A stretch of DNA of 64,000 bases from positions 186,001-250,000 of the forward strand of contig JAFKEU010000005.1 in the NCBI GenBank assembly GCA_017308475.1, in the 5' to 3' direction. Within the stretch, counting starts at the first letter, position 1. The number at the start of each line of letters is the position of its first letter. Below, piece after piece: positions 3,256 to 61,471 of this stretch. The translations under genes were made by a program, and so were the position numbers. Source of the stretch: Alphaproteobacteria bacterium. Its GTDB lineage: Bacteria > Pseudomonadota > Alphaproteobacteria > Micropepsales > Micropepsaceae. Below the pieces are notes generated by a model. The model was not told where the DNA came from. It worked only from the letters and a program-made list of their open reading frames with translations, and searched no databases.

Positions 3256-5778
3256 CTAGAGCGCGCGCTGGATGGTTTCGACCTCGAAACACTCGATGAC
3301 GTCGCCCTTCTGCATGTCCTGGTAGTTGGCGAAGGCCATGCCGCATTCCTGGCCGACCTGGACTTCCTTCACCTCATCCTTGAAGCGCTTGAGCGTCGAC
3401 AATTCGCCTTCGTGGATCACCACATTGTCGCGGATCAGGCGCACCTTTGCTCCGCGGCGCACCACGCCCTCGGTGACCTTGCAGCCGGCGACCTTGCCCA
3501 CCTTGGTGATATTGAACACCTCGAGAATTTCGGCGTTGCCCAGGAACTTCTCGCGCGTTTCCGGCGCCAGAAGGCCCGACAGCGCCGCCTTCACGTCATC
3601 TACCAGGTTGTAGATGATGTTGTAGTAGCGGATTTCCACGCCGTCGCGCTTGGCGCGTTCGCGGGCCTGGGCGTTGGCGCGGACATTGAAGCCGATCACC
3701 GCCGCGCCCGAGGCATGGGCCAGGATCACGTCGCTTTCGGTGATGCCGCCGACGCCGGACTGAAGGATCTGGGCGCCCACTTCGTCGGTGCCAAGCTTGG
3801 CCAGCGCGCCCTGGATGGCTTCGGAGGAGCCCTGGACATCGGCCTTCAGCACCAGCGGCAACTGGCGCTTCTCGCCCGCCTCGCGGGTCTGCAGCAACTG
3901 GTCCAGCGTCTGGCGGCTGGACGATGCCTGGCGCTGTTCGCGGCGCTTGCGGGCCCGGTATTCGGCGACCTCGCGGGCGCGCGCTTCCGATTCCACCACC
4001 ACCATTTCGTCGCCGGCTTCGGGCGGCGCCGAAAGGCCCAGCACCTCGATGGGCGTGGAGGGGCCGGCTTCCTTCACCGTCTCACCGCGCTCGTTGGCCA
4101 GAAGCCGCACCCTGCCCCATTCGCTGCCGGCGACGACGATGTCGCCCACCTTCAGCGTGCCGCGCTGCACCAGCACGGTGGCGACAGGACCACGGCCCTT
4201 GTCCAGCTTGGCTTCGACCACGGCGCCTTCGGCGGGGCGGTCGGGATTGGCCCTCAGGTCCAGCAGTTCGGCCTGCAGCAGGATGGCTTCTTCCAGCTTG
4301 TCGAGGCCCGTGCCCTTGATGGCGGAGACTTCGACGGCCTGCACGTCGCCGCCCATGTCCTCGACCTGGATTTCATGCTGCAGCAGTTCAGTCTTGACGC
4401 GGGTAGGATTGGCATCGCCTTTGTCGATCTTGTTGATCGCCACGATGATCGGCACATGCGCCGCCTTGGCATGGGCGATGGCTTCCACCGTCTGGGGCAT
4501 CACCCCGTCATCGGCGGCGACCACCAGGATAACAATGTCGGTCACCTTGGCGCCGCGCGCGCGCATCGCGGTGAAGGCGGCGTGGCCGGGCGTGTCCAGG
4601 AAGCTGATCTTCTGGCCCGATCCGAGCTGAATCTGGTAGGCGCCGATATGCTGGGTGATGCCGCCGGCTTCGCCCGCGGCCACGTCGGTCTTGCGCAGCG
4701 CGTCCAGCAGTGAGGTCTTGCCATGGTCGACATGGCCCATGACGGTGACCACGGGCGGACGGGGCCTGAGCGCCGTGTCCGCATCGGCGGCACCGGTCAG
4801 GCCTTCCAGCACGTCGCTTTCGGCCACGCGCTTGACCACATGGCCGTACTCGGTGGCCACCAGTTCGGCGGTGTCGGCGTCGATAATGTCGGCGGGCGTG
4901 GCCATCATGCCGTTCTTCATCAGCACCTTGATCACGTCGACGGCGCGGCGCGCCATGCGGTTGGCGAGGTCGGAGACGGTGATGGTTTCCGGGATCACGA
5001 TGTCGCGCGGACCGGCGGGGCCGGCCTGCTGGCTCTGATGGCCCTTGTTGACGCGCTGCAGGTGGCGGCGATAGGCGGCGACCGAGCGGATGCGTTCGTC
5101 ATCGCCTTCCAGCGCGCGGGTCACGGTCAGCTTGCCGCGGCGGCGCTCGCCTTCGACCTTCTTGGGCGAAGCGGGCACCTTTGCGGCGCCGGGCTTGCCG
5201 GGGCCCTTCTTGGCGCTGCTTTCTTCTTCCTCTTCGTTCTGCAGCCGGCGGCGCGGCGCCTCCTCCGTGACGGCGGCGGCGGGCTTGGGTGCCGTCTCCA
5301 GTCGGCGGGCGGCTTCCTGTTCGGCGCGCTTTCTGGCGGCCTCGTCGGCGGCCTTGCGGGCGTCTTCCTCGGCCTTGCGCTTTTCGGCGGCGATGCGTTC
5401 GGACGCCAGCTGCGCTTCTTCGCGCGCATGGCGTTCGGCTTCCTGCTCGGCGTGGCGGCGGGCCTCGGCGTCGCTGACCTTGGCTTCCGCCAGCGCGGTG
5501 GCCCGGCGGGCCTTTTCCTCTTCCGACAGCTGGCGCAGCACCACGCCGCGCGGGGCGGGGGCCGGGGACTTTTCCGCCGCCTTGGGCGCGGGCCGCTCGG
5601 CGGCCGGTGCGGCGGCAGGCTGGGCGGTGCTGCGCGCGGGAGGCGCGCCCAGGGTGCGCTTCTTCTCCACCACCACGGCCTTGGTGCGGCCATGGCTGAA
5701 GCTCTGCTTGACGGTGGATGTTTCCGTCTTCTTCAGCGACAGCGTCTTGGGGCGCTTGGTTTCGTCGGTATCGCTCAT
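3256..5778 (-). CDS. infB: Translation initiation factor IF-2
   Basis: IF-2 is the GTPase that brings fMet-tRNA to the 30S subunit and joins the subunits. The 840-residue product begins with a short IF2_N-like stretch and a long Ala/Glu/Lys/Arg-rich coiled segment (about residues 80-220), typical of alphaproteobacterial IF-2. It then has the G domain with GHVDHGKT near residue 350, DTPGH and NKID motifs, and the C-terminal beta-barrel domains. It lies downstream of the ylxR-like gene with a 9-base gap. Confidence 0.98.
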
Positions 5779-23462: not shown

Positions 23463-24147
<685 letters not shown>

Positions 24148-47191: not shown

Positions 47192-49219
47192 TCACAGGCC
47201 GAGGTCGTCGCCCGGGTCGAGCGAGGCCTGCTGCGCGAGGCCTCGCATCAGGTCGTTCATCCGACCGATCCGGGGCGCGTCCTCCTCAAGCTCGTCGGCC
47301 GGATCGAGCGCGAACTCGTTCTCGATCGGCTCCTTCTTCTCGACGGTGTCCTGGCTTAGCTCCGGCTGGCGGCGGCGATCCGCATTCTTCGGATCTTCAT
47401 CGTCAGCGTCTTCCCCATCGCGCGACACAGGCGCCGGCGGGCGCGGCGGAAGCGGACGGGCGCTCCAGTCATCGGGCCGGCCCTCTTTCGGCCGGGCCAG
47501 CGTGGGCGGCGGGATGATGCGCTCCTGGAAGCGCGCGTCCTCGTAGTAGCGCGCCTTCTGCGCGCGGATCGGATGCAGCCCCGAGACCATGACGATCTCG
47601 TCGGCGGGCGGGAGCTGCATGATTTCGCCGGGCGTCAGCAGCGGCCGCGCGGTTTCCGAGCGCGAGACCATCAGGTGGCCGAGCCAGGGCGACAACCGGC
47701 TGCCGGCATAGTTCTTCATCGCCTTCATCTCGGTCGCGGTGCCGAGGGCGTCGCTTACCCGCTTAGCGGTTCGCTCGTCGTTGGTCGCGAAGCTGACGCG
47801 CACATGGCAGTTATCGAGGATCGAGTTGTTGGGGCCATAGGCCCTCTCGATCTGGTTCAGCGACTGGGCGATGAGGAAGCTCTTGATCCCGTAGCCCGCC
47901 ATGAAGGCGAGCGCAGACTCGAAGAAGTCTAGCCGGCCAAGCGCCGGGAACTCGTCCAGCATCAGGAGAAGCCGGCGGCGCCCCGCCTTGGCCAGCAGGT
48001 CCTCGGTCAAGCGCCGCCCGATCTGATTGAGGATCAGCCGGATCAGCGGCTTGGTCCGATTGATGTCCGAGGGCGGTACGACGAGGTAGAGCGTCGTCGG
48101 CCGATCGCCGGCGACGATGTCGCCGATCCGCCAGTCGCATCGCCGCGTCACCTCGGCCACCACAGGATCGCGATACAGCCCGAGAAACGACATGGCCGTG
48201 CTGAGGACACCGGAGCGCTCGTTGCCGGACTTGTTCAAAAGCTCGCGGGCAGCCGACGCAACGACGGGATGGACGCCGGCCTCGCCGAGGTGGGCGGTCT
48301 TCATCATCGCCGCCAAGGTGGACTCGATTGGCCGCTTGGGGTCGGACAGAAAGGCGGCGACGCCGGCGAGTGTCTTGTCCTCCTCGGCGTAGAGGACGTG
48401 CAGGATGGCGCCGACCAAAAGCGCGTGGCTCGTCTTTTCCCAGTGATTGCGCTTTTCCAGGCTGCCTTCGGGATCGACCAGAATGTCGGCAATGTTCTGA
48501 ACGTCGCGCACTTCCCATTCGCCGCGCCGGACCTCGAGCAGCGGATTGTAGGCCGACGACTTCGCGTTGGTCGGATCGAACAGCAGGACGCGACCGTGCT
48601 GCGCCCGAAAGCCGGCGGTGAGCTGCCAGTTCTCGCCCTTGATGTCGTGGACGATCGCCGAGCCCGGCCAGGTGAGAAGCGACGGAATAACCAGGCCGAC
48701 GCCCTTGCCGCTTCGGGTCGGAGCGAAACACAGCACATGCTCGGGGCCGTCGTGGCGAAGATAGCTGCGCTGGTGGCGGCCTAGCACCACGCCGTCCGGA
48801 CCCAGCAGCCCGGCCTGCTCGATCTCCTTCGGCTGCGCCCATCGCGCGGAGCCGTAGGTCTCGGCGTTCTTCGCTTCGCGCGCCCGCCAGACCGACATGC
48901 CGATCGCCACGGCCGCGGCGATGAGGCCGCCCGACGCGGCGATGTAGGCGCCCTCGATGAAGATCGACGGCGCATAGGCGTCGTAGGCGTACCACCACCA
49001 GAAGAAGGCCGGCGGCAGATAGAAGGGAAAATGCAGCAACTCGAACCACGGCCGCCCCAGCTCCGGCTGGAAGCCAAGGCGGCAGGCGGTCCATTCCGTC
49101 GCCGTCCAGGTCGCCAGCAAGACGATGCCGAAGACGGTGATGACCTGGCCCCAGAGGATCTTGGTCGCGGACACGGCGGACGTCCTTTCTTGAAGTCGTT
49201 GATGGGTGGGGTCGTTCAA
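47192..49219 (-). CDS. traG: Type IV coupling protein TraG (VirD4-like)
   Basis: TraG links the relaxosome to the secretion channel. The 675-residue product has N-terminal membrane helices, Walker A (APTRSGKGVGLVIPSLL) near residue 170, Walker B (LLLMLDEFPALGRLD) near residue 420, and the SFLIAQSLNQIERAYG segment. The acidic tail (PADELEEDAPRIG) is typical. It overlaps the relaxase gene by 4 bases. Confidence 0.95.
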   Translation of the reverse strand: MNDPTHQRLQERTSAVSATKILWGQVITVFGIVLLATWTATEWTACRLGFQPELGRPWFELLHFPFYLPPAFFWWWYAYDAYAPSIFIEGAYIAASGGLIAAAVAIGMSVWRAREAKNAETYGSARWAQPKEIEQAGLLGPDGVVLGRHQRSYLRHDGPEHVLCFAPTRSGKGVGLVIPSLLTWPGSAIVHDIKGENWQLTAGFRAQHGRVLLFDPTNAKSSAYNPLLEVRRGEWEVRDVQNIADILVDPEGSLEKRNHWEKTSHALLVGAILHVLYAEEDKTLAGVAAFLSDPKRPIESTLAAMMKTAHLGEAGVHPVVASAARELLNKSGNERSGVLSTAMSFLGLYRDPVVAEVTRRCDWRIGDIVAGDRPTTLYLVVPPSDINRTKPLIRLILNQIGRRLTEDLLAKAGRRRLLLMLDEFPALGRLDFFESALAFMAGYGIKSFLIAQSLNQIERAYGPNNSILDNCHVRVSFATNDERTAKRVSDALGTATEMKAMKNYAGSRLSPWLGHLMVSRSETARPLLTPGEIMQLPPADEIVMVSGLHPIRAQKARYYEDARFQERIIPPPTLARPKEGRPDDWSARPLPPRPPAPVSRDGEDADDEDPKNADRRRQPELSQDTVEKKEPIENEFALDPADELEEDAPRIGRMNDLMRGLAQQASLDPGDDLGL

Positions 49220-50955
49220 AGGCCGAGCCCCCGATTGCGCCCGAAACCCCAGTCGATGCCGCCGTCGCTGCGCGTGACGCCGGAGACGTGGCGGCCGAGC
49301 TGCTTCTCCAGCGAGGGCGTCCAGGGCACGAGTTGGAATCCAAGGCCGTCGTCGATCATGGCGAAGCGGCCGGAGGCGAGCGCGAAGCGCTGCCGATAGG
49401 CGCCGGCGACATACTCGCCCGCTGCGCCGCGATTGAACGGCTGCCCAGTGTCGGCCGCGAGCTGCTCGCCCAGGGCTTCGACCTCCCGGCGCCGAAGCGT
49501 TCCGATCAGACCCTGGGAGAAGACGATGCCGCGCGCCTGTCGTTCGGCGAGGCCCTGCTCGACGAGCTGCTCTGCCCGCCGCTCCATCGCGTCGCGGACT
49601 TCGGCGCCGAATCCGGCTTGGCCGAGCGCCACAGGGTCGCGGGCGACCGCCTGTCGATCGAGCCAGGTCGCACCGCTGGCCGTCACCTGGTGCTCGATCG
49701 AGAGATCGGACCGCACAGCGAGCGCGACGCGCCGCCGCCCTTGCGCGTCGTCGAACTTGCGCAGCTCGACTATCGAGCCCGGGGCGCTGTCCCCGGCCGC
49801 GTCGAGGTCGGGGAATTTGATGTGATGGGTGCGGCCGTCGACACCGTCGACCACGGCATAGGCCGTGCCTTTCAGCTCGTCATCGAGACCGCGATCTACG
49901 AGCCGGCCGATGACCGGGACTTCGAGGCTCTCGCCAGCGAGGACGAAGCTTGCGGTCGCGCGCTCGATGCCGCGTTCGGTCAGGCCGCGATGGATGCGCT
50001 TGATGATGTCGCCGCGCTCGCCGAGTTCGCGCAGCGTCGTCTCGGCGGCCTCGTCCATGGTCCACTGGCCTGCCCCAATCTGGTGAGCGAGCCCGAGGTT
50101 CTCGAGATGGCGCAGCCGTCCAACCTTGAGGCTATGAAACTCGTCGGGCTGTTGTCCGGGGACGGTGGCCAGATCGATGACGCCATGCCGATCGGCATCG
50201 CGAAGCAGTTGTCGATCGAGCTGAGTCCAGCGCTCGGCCTGCACCTGGCGCTCGAGTGCGTGACGGATGTCGATATCGCTGCGCAGCCCCAGCTCTTGCG
50301 TGACCAGATCCTGGGCGCGGGCACGCATTCCCTCTTTGATGTAATCGCGTGAGATGACGAGGTCCTGGCCATCCTCGGCGACGCCCCGCACGATGATGTG
50401 GACGTGCGGGTGCTGCGTGTTCCAGTGATCGACGGCCACCCAGTCGAGCTTGGTGCCGAGATCCTTCTCCATCTGGCCGACCAGCTCGCGGGTGTAACCT
50501 TGGAGATTGGCCATCTCCGGCGCGTCCTCGGGCGAGACGATGAAACGGAAATGGTGGCGGTCCCCCTCGCACCGTTCGGCGAAAGCCTTCGGATCGGCGT
50601 CGTCGGTGTCGGGGCCGAACAGCCGCGCCTTCTCCCCGTCGCGGGTGACGCCCTCGCGCCGGAGGTAGCTGAGATGGGCGCCGAGCGGCGCGGACCGGGC
50701 GGTATGCCGGACCACCCGTGTCTTGACCGTCACCAGTCGGAAGCGGCCGGTCAGCAGGCGGTTCGCCTGGACGCTGGCAACGCGGCCGCGGCCGAAGGTC
50801 GAGCGGCTCTTGCTCCTCAGGAGGCCCTGCCGCGAGATGCCGCCCCCGGCACGTTGAGCGGCCGCGAGCGCCTGGGCGATGAACGGCTTCGCACGCTGAC
50901 TGCGGGAAGAGCGGATGCGGCCTGGCCGGGGATGGAAGTCGTTCTCCTCAGCCAT
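49216..50955 (-). CDS. Relaxase/mobilization nuclease, DUF3363 type
   Basis: The relaxase nicks oriT and pilots the strand. The 579-residue product has a basic N-terminus, a candidate catalytic Tyr in AHLSYLRREGV (near residue 84), the RHHFRFIVSPEDA motif, and the metal-binding HPHVHIIVRG (HxH) near residue 185, followed by the DUF3363 region. I choose the ATG at 50955 (MAEENDFHPRPGR). The region upstream is the likely oriT. Confidence 0.92.
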   Translation of the reverse strand: MAEENDFHPRPGRIRSSRSQRAKPFIAQALAAAQRAGGGISRQGLLRSKSRSTFGRGRVASVQANRLLTGRFRLVTVKTRVVRHTARSAPLGAHLSYLRREGVTRDGEKARLFGPDTDDADPKAFAERCEGDRHHFRFIVSPEDAPEMANLQGYTRELVGQMEKDLGTKLDWVAVDHWNTQHPHVHIIVRGVAEDGQDLVISRDYIKEGMRARAQDLVTQELGLRSDIDIRHALERQVQAERWTQLDRQLLRDADRHGVIDLATVPGQQPDEFHSLKVGRLRHLENLGLAHQIGAGQWTMDEAAETTLRELGERGDIIKRIHRGLTERGIERATASFVLAGESLEVPVIGRLVDRGLDDELKGTAYAVVDGVDGRTHHIKFPDLDAAGDSAPGSIVELRKFDDAQGRRRVALAVRSDLSIEHQVTASGATWLDRQAVARDPVALGQAGFGAEVRDAMERRAEQLVEQGLAERQARGIVFSQGLIGTLRRREVEALGEQLAADTGQPFNRGAAGEYVAGAYRQRFALASGRFAMIDDGLGFQLVPWTPSLEKQLGRHVSGVTRSDGGIDWGFGRNRGLGL

Positions 50956-51309
50956 GGCCGGCCCCGGCAATGTGCGGAAAAGGCAGTTCCAGCAAGGGTT
51001 TGAAGCGCGCGCGCACATTTCGGGCGGAGGCCGCACATTGCCGGATCAACGAATAAACCAAGCAAAAACAACCGACCGACCGAGCCGCACCCTGCGGCCT
51101 TTTATCTGGCCCTCGGTCGGTTGGTTTCTGCACTCCTCCCCTGTCCGCCCTTCCTTCTTCCCGGAGGCACGCCAGGGTGCGCCTGCCTGCGAAGTCGTGC
51201 CCCGTAGCTGGGATGTAGCCCTTTGAGCCGCCGGAGGCCGCCGAGCCGACAGGGAAAGCGCGAGCCGGCCGAGGCGATGTAGCGGCACATAGACGGGAGA
51301 ATGGTGCGG
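50956..51309. other. Probable oriT region upstream of the relaxase
   Basis: This 354-base gap contains no gene. Its main feature is an inverted repeat with 10-bp arms ACCGACCGAG (51075-51084) and CTCGGTCGGT (51112-51121), enclosing two small hairpins (CCGC-accct-GCGG; GGCC-ttttatct-GGCC). CACCCTGC inside resembles the CCTG|C core of IncP-type nick sites. Location upstream of the relaxase is usual for oriT. Confidence 0.5.
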
Positions 51310-52030: not shown

Positions 52031-52366
52031 TCAGCCCCGATCGCCGCGCTTCGGCGGACGGTTCCAGTTCAGCACCCAGGCGGATTTGTCGTCGCCCGAC
52101 TGGAAGAGGTTGGCGCGGATCGGCAACGCGAGTGCGGGATCGTCGATGACGAGCGAGACATACTCACCCGCCTTCTCGCCGGTGCGCTTCCAGCCCGCGC
52201 CGATCTCCGGGCCGTCGCCGTCGCCCATGTGGACACGATAGTCGGGCGCGTTCTCGGCATCGGAGGATTCGGCCGGAACGAGGGAAAGGTCACGGTAGAA
52301 GAAGAGCGTCTGGATGCGCCCGGTGAAGCCGGACTTATCGCGGGTGAACTGACCAATCTGCGCCAC
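52031..52366 (-). CDS. DUF736 protein, first copy
   Basis: The 111-residue product (start GTG at 52366, reading MAQIGQFTRDKSGFTG) is a DUF736 beta-rich protein; the conserved GAGWKRTGEKAGEYVSLVID core is present. DUF736 genes occur almost only on plasmids and integrative elements. A second copy is at 57,957. Function unknown. Confidence 0.87.
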   Translation of the reverse strand: MAQIGQFTRDKSGFTGRIQTLFFYRDLSLVPAESSDAENAPDYRVHMGDGDGPEIGAGWKRTGEKAGEYVSLVIDDPALALPIRANLFQSGDDKSAWVLNWNRPPKRGDRG

Positions 52367-52401
52367 GGTAAACCTCCGTTGTTGGCGGGTTGAGAAGCGG
52401 G

Positions 52402-52947
52402 TCAATCGGTGGCGGCGCGCCACACGAAGCGGCCGTCGCCGGTCTCGTCGGTCCACAGCGGGACCGCGCGGGCGACGATCGCGGTGGTGGGAAGCGGGCC
52501 GAAATAGCGCCCGTCCAGGCTGTCCGGGACGGTCGGGTTCATGAGGAAGACTTCGCTGGGGCCGAGGGTGTGGCAGCCGCTCCAGCGCGGCAGCGGACGG
52601 CCGAGGTGATCGCGTTCACGCGCCTCGCCGACGCCGATGTGATCGACGGTGATTGCGTCGCCTGCGCGGCAAACCGTCTGCCCTGGCAGCGCCATCACAT
52701 GCTTCAGCAGCGGCACGCCCTTGGGCAGGAAGCCGCCATCAGCGAGGTAGCTGGCGATCGGTTCGGGCGCGCGCACGGCGACCAGTTCGAGCGCGTGGAG
52801 CTGTCCGGCCGGACGGAGCGCATAGAGCCCAGTCGGTGTGCTCGCCGTGGCGTTCCAGATCAGGCGCGGCGCCGGATGGACGAAGGCCAAGCCGATGAAG
52901 ACAAGCATGGCGAAATACGTCGTCATGACGCAGCCGAAGCGGGTCAT
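52402..52947 (-). CDS. traF: Conjugative transfer signal peptidase TraF
   Basis: TraF is an S26-type peptidase that matures or cyclises the TrbC pilin. The 181-residue product has an N-terminal membrane helix, the catalytic Ser region NATASTPTGLYALRP, the Lys region GVPLLKHVMALPGQTV, and NPTVPDSLDGRYFGPLP. It overlaps the DUF2840 gene by 4 bases. Confidence 0.93.
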   Translation of the reverse strand: MTRFGCVMTTYFAMLVFIGLAFVHPAPRLIWNATASTPTGLYALRPAGQLHALELVAVRAPEPIASYLADGGFLPKGVPLLKHVMALPGQTVCRAGDAITVDHIGVGEARERDHLGRPLPRWSGCHTLGPSEVFLMNPTVPDSLDGRYFGPLPTTAIVARAVPLWTDETGDGRFVWRAATD

Positions 52948-57956: not shown

Positions 57957-58283
57957 TCAGTCGCTCCGGCGGCCGTTGGGGCGGGACCAGATCAGGCTGT
58001 AGCCCTCGGCGTCCTCGTCGTCGAAGAGGTTGGCGAAGATCGGGGCGGTGAAGCTCGGATCGTCGAGCTTGAGACCCAGATAGTCGCGGCCCTCGTTGGA
58101 GCGCTTGGACCAGGCGGCGCCGATTTCCACCCGACCAACATAGACGCGGTGGCTGGGGCTGTTGTCGCCGGAGCGGTTGGCTTCGGGGACGATCCGGACG
58201 TTCTTGGCCTGGAGCGAGAGGGTGACGATTTCGCCGGTGAACTCGTTCGAGCCGGTCTTCTTGAAGGTGCCGATGGTGGCCAT
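57957..58283 (-). CDS. DUF736 protein, second copy
   Basis: The 108-residue product ([20 protein letters not shown]) has the DUF736 core ([40 protein letters not shown]). It differs considerably from the copy at 52,031, so the two are not a recent duplication. A long structured leader lies upstream. Confidence 0.9.
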
Positions 58284-58397
58284 GGTAGTTCTCCTTGATC
58301 TCTGTTTCGAGCCCGCACCATTGCGGCCTCGATGGCGATCGGTTGGCCGGAGGCGATCGACGGCGCACCCCGAAGGGGCTCGACAGCAAAGGAGGGG

Positions 58398-58445
58398 CTT
58401 TCTTGTCTCGCGAGGAATGACGGCGCAGCCGTCAGGGGAAGAAAG
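58398..58445 (-). ncRNA. Nested inverted repeat A with TTGTCTCGCGA core
   Basis: Arms CTTTCTT (58398-58404) and AAGAAAG (58439-58445) enclose GTCTCGCGA and a 6-bp hairpin GACGGC-gca-GCCGTC (58419-58433). CCCC-gaa-GGGG follows at 58368-58378. It lies 115 bases upstream of the DUF736 start. The same layout and 11-base core recur at 61,274. Whether it acts as RNA is inference. Confidence 0.5.
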
Positions 58446-58854
58446 TTTTGACGCCGCTGTTGCGCCATAGGCGATCGAGGCTTCAGCCGGCCTTCGGCTA
58501 GATCAGCCCATCGAAGAGGCCGTTTGGTGCTCTCGATCTACAGAGATGACATCAAGGAGAAAGTGGCAGCCGCCGCGCTGGAAACGGGCCGGCGTGGGAC
58601 TTCGGCATACAAAGCGCACCTCTATCCGCGCGACGCGCGGTTCCCCCGAAATCATCGCTCTGCGCAGACCCGGCTTGGCTCACGCGTTTCGATCGGGTGG
58701 ATGTAGCGAAAGGACGCTCGGTCCGAGTTGCCCATGAGGTTGCTGCCTGTGCGGTCCGCGATGACGATCGTTCGCTAGACCGCGACGATCACTGACGGCG
58801 AAATAGGCGCAGCGGGAGCCTGATCCTCGCGCCGTCTCTAGTCGCTGGATCGCG
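58446..58854. other. Gene-poor stretch
   Basis: About 400 bases upstream of the structured DUF736 leader contain only short open frames on both strands without family resemblance or convincing ribosome-binding sites. The longest (58,524-58,706, plus) ends inside repetitive-looking sequence and is not accepted as a gene. Confidence 0.5.
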
Positions 58855-59295
58855 TCAGGTCCGCGCCATGCCCTGTCCGGCGGGTCCGGGCGTGGCCATT
58901 CCCGTGAACCGCAAGAACGCGGTAATGCCGACGGCGATGGCGCCGACGACCGCGAAGATCGTCTGCCAGATCGCAGAGGGCATCGCCATATGTGCGATCC
59001 CGTAAGTCGCGCTGTATCCGGCGACGACGGCGGGTACGACGAAGAGCAGGATGATCAAGAGCCGCAGCAAAGTCCAGGGCACGAAGCCGAGCGCGAATTG
59101 GCCGATGCCGAATGTCGCCCCACCGGCGACCAGGCCGACAAGGATGCCGCCGAGCACGCCGGCGCCGCTGTGGAATGCCCAGACGCCGAGCGTCAGGCCG
59201 ACGAAGAACGGCAATGCGAACACAGCAAGGGTGAAGAGCAGCCAGCAGATGAAGCAGATGCCGGCGATGACGAGTAGTGGTCCGAAGATGATCAT
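58855..59295 (-). CDS. Polytopic membrane protein, unknown
   Basis: The 146-residue product has about five hydrophobic helices (PLLVIAGICFICWLLFTLAV; GVLGGILVGLVAGGATFGIG; LLIILLFVVPAVVAGYSATY; IFAVVGAIAVGITAFLRFTG). No charged pattern points to a function. Similar small membrane proteins are common in the accessory ends of such elements. Confidence 0.72.
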   Translation of the reverse strand: MIIFGPLLVIAGICFICWLLFTLAVFALPFFVGLTLGVWAFHSGAGVLGGILVGLVAGGATFGIGQFALGFVPWTLLRLLIILLFVVPAVVAGYSATYGIAHMAMPSAIWQTIFAVVGAIAVGITAFLRFTGMATPGPAGQGMART

Positions 59296-59382
59296 GGCGG
59301 TGTACTCCGTGAGATAAAGTTCTGACGGTTGCGCCTTCCACCACCACCACCACGGCGCGAACGTGAGTATAGCCTCAAACAG

Positions 59383-59413
59383 GCGCCAGTGGGAGTGGGA
59401 ATCCCGCTGGCGC
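59383..59413 (-). terminator. Hairpin between two small genes (D)
   Basis: GCGCCAG (59383-59389) and CTGGCGC (59407-59413) plus inner GGGA/TCCC form a stem. It lies 34 bases after the stop of the 59,447 gene and 88 bases before the membrane-protein start on the minus strand. CCTGTTTG follows, so a weak terminator is likely. Confidence 0.5.
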
Positions 59414-59446
59414 TTCGAGGTTCAGTCTGCGTGGCGGTTCGCCCCA

Positions 59447-59614
59447 TCATGGTTGGAAGGGGTCGAATTCGTGGATGACTGCGCCGGGATCGCCGTCATA
59501 TTCGGTGGCCAGCATGACGCCGAAGTTGCCAGCGTCAGCATGGAAGACAACGACGCAGACCATGAGGGTGATGGCGAGGTTCCAACCGTTGGCGAATGCG
59601 AGGGTTTGAGACAT
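59447..59614 (-). CDS. Small hydrophobic protein, unknown
   Basis: The 55-residue product (MSQTLAFANGWNLAITLMVC, then VVFHADAGNFGVMLATEYDG) starts at the ATG at 59614 with an AGGAGCCGG-like Shine-Dalgarno upstream. It has one short hydrophobic segment. No function can be assigned. Confidence 0.55.
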   Translation of the reverse strand: MSQTLAFANGWNLAITLMVCVVVFHADAGNFGVMLATEYDGDPGAVIHEFDPFQP

Positions 59615-59670
59615 TGATCCGGCTCCTGCGCTGAGGCGGGGACCATCCCCGCGCGACAGGCGCCCGATGT

Positions 59671-59775
59671 GTCCGGCCGAGGGCCGCAATCACCGCGAAG
59701 GCAAAGACGCAGCGGCGGCACGCTTCGCGTAAGCCGACCCTTCACGGGTTGATGGCGTCAGGCCCTCGGCCGGAC
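59671..59775. repeat. Long inverted repeat C with 15-bp perfect arms
   Basis: GTCCGGCCGAGGGCC (59671-59685) and GGCCCTCGGCCGGAC (59761-59775) are exact inverted copies 75 bases apart. Inside are GCGAAG/CTTCGC and ACCC-ttca-GGGT-type stems. It lies in the 320-base region between the small minus-strand gene and a plus-strand gene. No other gene is visible there. Confidence 0.7.
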
Positions 59776-59934
59776 CAAGGATCAGCGCTGATAGACGAGG
59801 GGTGGCACCCGCCAGCACGGGCGGCTCATTAATGGCCGTCACAAGCAACGTGTGGAATCTCGTTGTCCTCACGGTACGCTGACCGATCGGCTAAGGTGTG
59901 CTCACGAGTCGACATGATGGTTGAGGCATGCGGC

Positions 59935-60144
59935 ATGGCGGAATTTACGGGACGCGAGTTGCATCTGGTGAAGAAGGCGCTCGCGATTGCGGTGCTGGCG
60001 ATCGAGCGACAGCCGGGACCGTTTCAATCGGCGTCCGATCAAGCTGACATGAAGGTGCTGCTCGACGAGCTGATCGAGAACGATGTGGAATTGGCGCACT
60101 ATGCTCGCGCGGCCCGGATCGCTGTGACGGGTGAGTCGGACTGA
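59935..60144 (+). CDS. Small helical protein, unknown
   Basis: The 69-residue product (MAEFTGRELHLVKKALAIAV, ending ARAARIAVTGESD) is helical and acidic. In-frame ATGs at 59914 and 59863 would lengthen it. It is the only plus-strand gene in this part of the element and is closed by a clear terminator, which supports it as real. No family recognised. Confidence 0.6.
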   Translation: MAEFTGRELHLVKKALAIAVLAIERQPGPFQSASDQADMKVLLDELIENDVELAHYARAARIAVTGESD

Positions 60145-60179
60145 AAGGCGGGTTTACGGAAAGCCCTTCGTCCGCCTTT
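60144..60179 (+). terminator. Terminator of the small plus-strand gene
   Basis: AAAGGCGG (60144-60151) and CCGCCTTT (60172-60179) are 8-bp perfect arms, the second ending in TTTAT. It begins at the stop codon of the preceding gene, consistent with an intrinsic terminator. Confidence 0.6.
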
Positions 60180-60211
60180 ATGTGTTCACGTCATTACGCC
60201 CGCAGGGTAAA

Positions 60212-60229
60212 GCGGCGCTTACGCGCCGC
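60212..60229 (-). terminator. Hairpin at the DUF2493 stop codon
   Basis: GCGGCGC-ttac-GCGCCGC forms a 7-bp perfect stem that includes the DUF2493 stop codon. On the minus strand it is followed by TTTACC. A weak intrinsic terminator is likely. Confidence 0.5.
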
Positions 60230-61148
60230 CAAACTTCCAGACCGGGATGCCGAGCTTCTTCGCCTTGTCGGCGAGGTTGTCCTGGATGCCGGTGCCGGGG
60301 AAGTGCATTACCCCGATCGGCAGGGTCTCCACCATGGCGTCGTTGCGCTTGAACGGTGCGGCCTTGGCGTGCTTCGTCCAGTCGGGTTTGAAGGCGATCT
60401 GCGTGACCTTGCGATTGTCGGCCCATTTGGCGGCAATCAGCTCGGCGCCCTTGGGCGAGCCACCGTGCAGCAGCACCATGTCCGGGTGCTTGGCGTGGAC
60501 CTGATCGAGCTTCGCCCAGACCAGCCGGTGATCGTTGAAGTCGAGCCCGCCGGTGAGTGCGACCTTCGGACCTGGCGGCAGGAGCACCTGGTTGTCGGCG
60601 CGCTTCTTGGCGTGGAGGAAGTCGCGGCTGTCGATCATCGCGGAGGTCAGATTGCGGTGATTGACCTTCGACCCGTTGCGCGGCCGCCAGGTCGCGTGGG
60701 TGTGGCGCTCGAATTGGTCGGCGGCCTGGTCGCGCATCAGCTCGAAGGCGTTACGGCGCTCGATCAGCGTCTGCCCTTCCGCCGTCAGGCGTTCCAGCTC
60801 GACGGACTTGACCTCGCTACCATCCTGTTCCCGTTGCGCGCGTTGCTGTGCCAGCTCGTTGTCATCGAGTTCGCGCTCGATCCGATCGATGGCCCGGTGG
60901 AAGACGTTCACCGTCGACCAGAGCAGGTCCTCGAGATCGGGCTCGAGGCGAGTGTCAGCCAGCGCCACCACGAGGGCGTCGAAGATGTCGGAGATGCTGC
61001 CCGCGAGGATGTCCGCTTCGGGAAGCGGCCTTGGATCGGGCTCGTCGCTGAAGGGACGGTAGCCATAGAGCTGGAGTTCGTGGAGGACCTGGTCGGTCGG
61101 GGATGAGCTGTGGTGCGGCTCGAAATCGTCGTCGTGGTCGGTGGTCAT
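60219..61148 (-). CDS. DUF2493 (SLOG superfamily) protein
   Basis: The 309-residue product has an acidic N-terminal region, a central helical section (VNVFHRAIDRIERELDDNEL) and a C-terminal DUF2493/YspA-like Rossmann domain (KVALTGGLDFNDHRLVWAKL; MVLLHGGSPKGAELIAAKWA). SLOG domains bind nucleotide-derived ligands and are found in stress and conflict systems. I choose the ATG at 61148 (MTTDHDDDFEPH). Confidence 0.85.
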   Translation of the reverse strand: MTTDHDDDFEPHHSSSPTDQVLHELQLYGYRPFSDEPDPRPLPEADILAGSISDIFDALVVALADTRLEPDLEDLLWSTVNVFHRAIDRIERELDDNELAQQRAQREQDGSEVKSVELERLTAEGQTLIERRNAFELMRDQAADQFERHTHATWRPRNGSKVNHRNLTSAMIDSRDFLHAKKRADNQVLLPPGPKVALTGGLDFNDHRLVWAKLDQVHAKHPDMVLLHGGSPKGAELIAAKWADNRKVTQIAFKPDWTKHAKAAPFKRNDAMVETLPIGVMHFPGTGIQDNLADKAKKLGIPVWKFGGA

Positions 61149-61273
61149 CGCGGCTTTCCTTGTCGGATCGGCCGTGCCCATCGCGGCCTTCATGGCGACG
61201 AAGGCGGCGGGCGGACGGACTTGCACCCGCAGCGCAGCGGAGGGCCGAAGCCTCGGCGGAGGACCGCAGGGGG

Positions 61274-61330
61274 CCGACTATTTTGTCTCGCGATGTAAAG
61301 GCGGCTCTGCCGCCGACGGAAAATAGTCGG
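61274..61330 (-). ncRNA. Nested inverted repeat B with TTGTCTCGCGA core
   Basis: Arms CCGACTATTTT (61274-61284) and AAAATAGTCGG (61320-61330) are 11-bp perfect. They enclose GTCTCGCGA (61285-61293) and the hairpin GGCGGC-tct-GCCGCC (61300-61314). It lies 126 bases upstream of the DUF2493 start. The order arm-core-hairpin-arm is the same as in element A although arm sequences differ. Confidence 0.55.
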
Positions 61331-61471
61331 TCCACAAGGTTGCCGGTCCGGGCCGCTTGCTGCCCGATCGCCCTCTCAGAAGGCCGTGGGCGTGGTCCTC
61401 TCCGACGCTTGGGGGAAAGCATGACTGCCGACCCTGTGGCGACGATGCTGCCGCGCCCATCCCCGTTCCGG

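Follow-up and report, generated by a model that had tools for sequence, protein, structure and literature searches.

We present here a family of structured leaders in alphaproteobacterial ICEs and plasmids which, with moderate confidence and by analogy with the Frpo elements of F, we read as a new family of single-stranded-DNA (ssDNA) promoters, Frpo-like in function, for establishment and anti-defence genes. Single-stranded promoters are already established in enterobacterial plasmids. A search of the open literature returned no paper pairing Frpo with Alphaproteobacteria and none on such elements there; ssDNA promoters therefore appear to be undescribed in this class, home to Agrobacterium and the rhizobial conjugative elements. 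A family that can be searched for gives a handle on the genes expressed first in a new host; the candidate establishment genes singled out in this way are DUF736 and DUF2493 (both of unknown function), ArdC, an SSB-like gene and small ORFs without a name.

Two leaders with a common layout are the tips of long rods

The window analysed is a stretch of 64,000 nucleotides, positions 186,001-250,000 (+ strand) of contig JAFKEU010000005.1 from a member of the Micropepsaceae (assembly GCA_017308475.1), and coordinates count from its start unless a locus is named. Element A (core 58398-58445, + strand) comprises the arm CTTTCTT, the 11-mer TTGTCTCGCGA (58403-58413), the apical hairpin TGACGGC/GCCGTCA and the arm AAGAAAG, while element B (core 61274-61330, + strand) comprises the arm CCGACTATTTT, TTGTCTCGCGA again (61283-61293), the apical hairpin GGCGGC/GCCGCC and the arm AAAATAGTCGG. 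Inspection of the sequence bore out the initial annotation on the coordinates, arms, hairpins and shared 11-mer, as well as on the distances of 115 and 126 bases that separate A and B, respectively, from a DUF736 gene (57957-58283, - strand; Pfam DUF736, E = 3.5e-34) and a DUF2493 gene (60219-61148, - strand, start codon at 61148; Pfam YAcAr, SLOG family, E = 4.6e-31).

Taken alone, the 11-mer is within chance, there being two exact copies in the entire 3.45-Mb genome where simple arithmetic predicts about 1.6, and three one-mismatch copies elsewhere in the window fit chance as well. The layout and pairing common to the two elements, however, are beyond chance, as follows from the covariance-model matches (58382-58463, E = 1.3e-16, for A and 61262-61343, E = 2.1e-19, for B, the model including both copies) and from homologous leaders in hundreds of plasmids. 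A chance repeat of the 11-mer is rejected on the grounds of the homologues and their covariation.

The genes that follow the elements both lie on the minus strand, and the earlier plus-strand description was therefore one of the template strand rather than of the mRNA. Likewise, the elements are present as described but form only the tips of larger rods. Rod A (58322-58523), an imperfect hairpin of ~202 nt in the DUF736 leader, and rod B (61182-61387), one of ~206 nt in the DUF2493 leader, were both assigned to the + strand, which is the template and the predicted T-strand; their predicted folding energies on this strand are -101.0 and -113.0 kcal/mol, compared with -82.9 and -98.3 kcal/mol on the respective mRNA strands. 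Consensus folding of full leaders (67 of DUF736 and 102 of DUF2493) gave a single long imperfect hairpin of ~200 nt, the most conserved part of which is an internal loop, TTCC...TCCTCGCG...CAA.

Several other features of this region were recorded. A probable ICE of ~58 kb runs from a tRNA gene (23722-23795) to G000:C5:268028 (L191 18529), where a 15-bp repeat of the 3' part of the tRNA marks its right end and a tyrosine integrase is encoded at L191 16972-18435. Its left part holds metal-resistance-like cargo and its right end (L191 8512-16559) defence- or restriction-like cargo with large helicase/methylase-like proteins. A third conserved rod-like leader (59618-59790, - strand), unrelated in sequence to A and B, lies upstream of a 55-aa ORF (59447-59617) and recurs within the same set of elements as 42 distinct homologues, with the template strand folding better in 40 of the 42. 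A second, divergent DUF736 gene (52031-52456, - strand; 37% identity to the first) is located in the transfer operon, and no copy of the rod element was found upstream of it.

The leaders recur before a small set of genes

Plasmid searches with the two leader regions returned 590 and 353 records, mostly alphaproteobacterial and many of them typed as conjugative, and the DUF736 leaders can be aligned with those of DUF2493 along most of the sequence. With 80 more genome loci added, the relatives of A and B from ICEs and plasmids of Alphaproteobacteria come to about 185 copies, almost all of them 105-155 nt before a start codon. Further homologues with covarying stems, related to gene starts and not scattered, were what the initial annotation had looked to for support, and the covariance-model and genome searches have indeed supplied them. 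DUF736 or DUF2493 follows in 182 of the 183 copies with enough flank (74 and 108, respectively), a tally that favours DUF2493, by which the loci were gathered; the start codon in these copies lies 120-153 nt past the anchor (5th-95th percentiles). The gene order recurs in 14 annotated regions, running from ParB-like, strawberry-notch helicase, toprim, DUF2493, DUF736 and DUF2285 genes through repA/parA and traF to a second DUF736, a lytic transglycosylase, the relaxase, traG and trb. DUF736 is reported from all ICEMlSym-type elements, where it is often duplicated (PMC8627217).

Because of this leaning towards DUF2493, we ran the covariance model on 385 genomes of the class, which gave 62 places in 28 genomes. 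Sixty of these were examined, 24 lying before DUF736, 18 before DUF2493 and 18 in other settings; among the latter were ArdC genes (five intact, one truncated), two distant DUF736s, a family of small 'SWDEY' ORFs that follows four of the copies, a handful of further small ORFs and one copy broken by an insertion sequence. Two weak matches among these 18, L185 and L189, look like chance and were set aside. A sample across the phylum was positive in 38 of 398 genomes, four of which lie outside the class and score more weakly, and 19 of 24 further places examined precede DUF736-type, DUF2493 or ArdC genes, with one more before an SSB-like gene that scores under the curated Pfam cut-off.

Individual copies depart from the common form. 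At L037, L038, L088, L117 and other loci the apical hairpin has been swapped for a repeat-like insertion of 40-60 nt, the remaining rod being kept. L227 carries an identical inverted duplicate (1423-1496 and 5001-5074), each copy before its own DUF736 gene, and L101 (8242-8325) carries one reversed copy, again before its own DUF736 gene.

Covariation and the strand that folds

Across an alignment of 141 distinct copies, pairing is kept in 89% of cells, compared with 73% in shuffles and 35-47% with partners slid, and while the covariance alignment is fitted to the structure and so favours pairing, an anchor-based count made without structure alignment agrees. The covariation noted between A and B holds across the family: 16 of 21 pairs have changed on both sides, double-changed cells number 519 against 236 in shuffles, with none of 500 shuffles as high, and covariation scores 0.399 against 0.164.

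Pair polarity offers a general means of distinguishing a folded DNA strand from a folded RNA, as an A.C pair on the sense strand is a G.T pair on the template strand. In the main stem, read in the sense direction, A.C outnumbers G.U by 87 to 9 in an alignment that was not structure-guided and by 78 to 6 in the covariance-model alignment, and the most variable pair occurs as A-T 53 times, G-C 44 times, A.C 38 times and never as G.T. Whole-leader structures show a smaller excess in the same direction, even where the sense strand was used to predict the structure (343 against 176 for DUF2493 and 161 against 152 for DUF736). The template strand is also the more stable fold in 126 of 131 leaders, although a weaker lean of this kind is seen in random windows of these loci (97 of 150). 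The A.C pairs are clustered at few positions, one pair of the apical hairpin is reversed (G.U), and biased mutation of exposed single strands could contribute to the A.C excess. Nevertheless, since the sense strand shows A.C with almost no G.U and the template strand also folds better, our data suggest that the molecule selected to fold is most likely the template strand of the gene.

Predicted nick sites and the geometry of transfer

A predicted oriT nick core, TTTTATCTGG^CC (51100-51111, + strand), with the nick expected at about 51109/51110, is embedded in an inverted repeat that precedes the relaxase gene (DUF3363 / MobA-VirD2; 49216-51036, - strand; Pfam DUF3363, E = 6.2e-90, and Relaxase). 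This core is conserved in seven elements, in which [CT]TTTATC(CTG/TGG/TCG/TTG)^CC stands before the relaxase gene, next to an inverted repeat or within it, and on the opposite strand to the genes. The RP4-type nick consensus is YATCCTG^Y, which the predicted core of the seven elements resembles. Since the predicted oriT has the relaxase gene on its lagging side, the + strand of the window would be the T-strand, entering first and rightwards through A and B, and both genes would thus have it as their template. Plasmid pSR7 (L038) carries a Ti-type traA/traC system with an unrelated relaxase, and between its traC and traA a candidate core, TATAATTGCG^CCCTTGG, follows a hairpin; this core resembles the RSF1010/Ti nick core and again lies on the template strand of DUF736 and DUF2493. 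With oriT and nick predicted in each case, the geometry in the window, the seven elements and pSR7 fits a position in the leading region. The predicted RP4-type cores of the seven elements and Ti-type core of pSR7 therefore point to the same geometry in two unrelated transfer systems, the folding strand probably being the T-strand and the genes probably lying in the leading region.

A proposed promoter on the transferred strand and its alternatives

We propose that, as long as the T-strand is single-stranded, the ~200-nt element would fold into a long hairpin which, in the recipient and before the complementary strand is made, would serve as a single-strand promoter. With the gene-proximal arm as its template, RNA polymerase would transcribe DUF736 and DUF2493, or in relatives ArdC or the SSB-like gene, and the products would serve immediate anti-defence and establishment functions; once the strand becomes double-stranded, the hairpin would be lost and expression would drop. 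Here we infer the identity of the T-strand (via the nick sites), the recruitment of RNA polymerase, transcription and its timing. Frpo1 and Frpo2 of F, two long hairpins of the T-strand, lie upstream of genes in the leading region and are needed for early expression in the recipient (PMC9849209), and the anti-defence genes of leading regions lie on the strand that is readable from ssDNA (PMC11541004). In the Frpo1 and Frpo2 windows of F the template strand folds better by 17-19 kcal/mol, which is not so in most other intergenic windows of the F leading region.

Several observations count against the promoter reading. The best 12-position match to canonical -35/-10 (sigma-70) boxes in either arm is no better than shuffled, and neither blastn of Frpo1/2 against 183 leaders nor a search of the F leading region with core profiles found any sequence similarity to Frpo. 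To these are added the clustering of A.C pairs, the lean of random windows and the opposite-orientation copies of L101 and L227, which are exceptions to the one-strand rule that the promoter model predicts. Given the lack of canonical boxes and of sequence similarity, our claim is that the family works like Frpo, not that it is Frpo. A broader proposition, on which we are evenly divided, is that early expression in the ICEs and plasmids of Alphaproteobacteria is organised by a new, non-homologous family of ssDNA promoters, read via the conserved internal loop and not via -35/-10; every gene that follows such an element, with DUF736, DUF2493 and several small ORFs without a name among them, would then be an establishment or anti-defence candidate.

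The main rival, or else a second role compatible with a promoter, is a single-strand initiation (priming) site, at which the T-strand hairpin would recruit a primase, perhaps the DUF7146/Toprim neighbour, or RNA polymerase for the start of the complementary strand. The title of the original Frpo paper reportedly names both promoter and priming roles. A Toprim/DUF7146 gene adjoins the DUF2493 gene in the window and in most relatives, and both the folding of the template strand and the missing promoter boxes would suit priming. However, priming does not require a near-fixed spacing to the start codons of several unrelated gene families, nor does it sit easily with the many copies in some elements (eight in one genome), and we consider it an unlikely explanation, if one deserving attention.

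The initial annotation had presented A and B as a candidate RNA motif, and an mRNA leader of this kind (a riboswitch, or a protein-binding or autoregulatory RNA) would account for the leader position, the covariation and the apparent regulon of several gene families. What stands of that proposal is a structured, covarying family before the genes of mobile elements; the RNA leader itself is probably wrong. Stems kept in a transcript would tolerate G.U and not A.C, the reverse of the counts in the main stem, and the mRNA strand is the one that folds worse. Rfam release 15 held no family at the gathering score, and permissive settings gave chance-level matches only. A riboswitch in the mRNA is thus disfavoured by pair polarity, and we regard an mRNA leader of any kind as improbable. 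Pair polarity and stability cannot separate a single DNA strand from an antisense RNA of template-strand sequence that folds into the rod and controls the gene; such an RNA would, however, leave unexplained both the shared orientation to the predicted oriT in two unrelated transfer systems and the leading-region gene content, and appears very improbable. Finally, a double-stranded site or mobile repeat (an operator or REP-like element) with no single-strand function, as the palindromic TCGCGA centre and the long apical-hairpin insertions of L037 and L038 might suggest, is scarcely credible, being largely refuted by pairing that is kept while the sequence changes and by matches that stand before genes.

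Comparison with known systems

The family shares a structured leader and covarying stems with the RNA leaders of Rfam, but matches no family there and has the pairing polarity of the other strand. The ssi of RSF1010 and the complementary-strand origin of phage M13 are single-strand origins or priming sites, and the present elements, compared by description only, are like them in being folded ssDNA with the potential to start RNA or DNA synthesis, and unlike them in their near-fixed distance to the start codons of several gene families. From Frpo they differ in their hosts, in having no canonical -35/-10 and in that the conserved internal loop is their most conserved part. As in the Frpo/ssi promoters of F and ColIb-P9 (PMC9849209, PMC11541004), however, a long intergenic hairpin lies upstream of genes that the predicted nick sites would place in the leading region, and as in F Frpo the better-folding strand is the template and, by prediction, the T-strand. 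Among the genes of the F leading region are ssb, a ParB-like gene and one for DUF932, all of them types that recur in the present elements (the latter two in annotated relatives), and an antirestriction gene type is common to the Frpo/ssi systems and to the elements described here.
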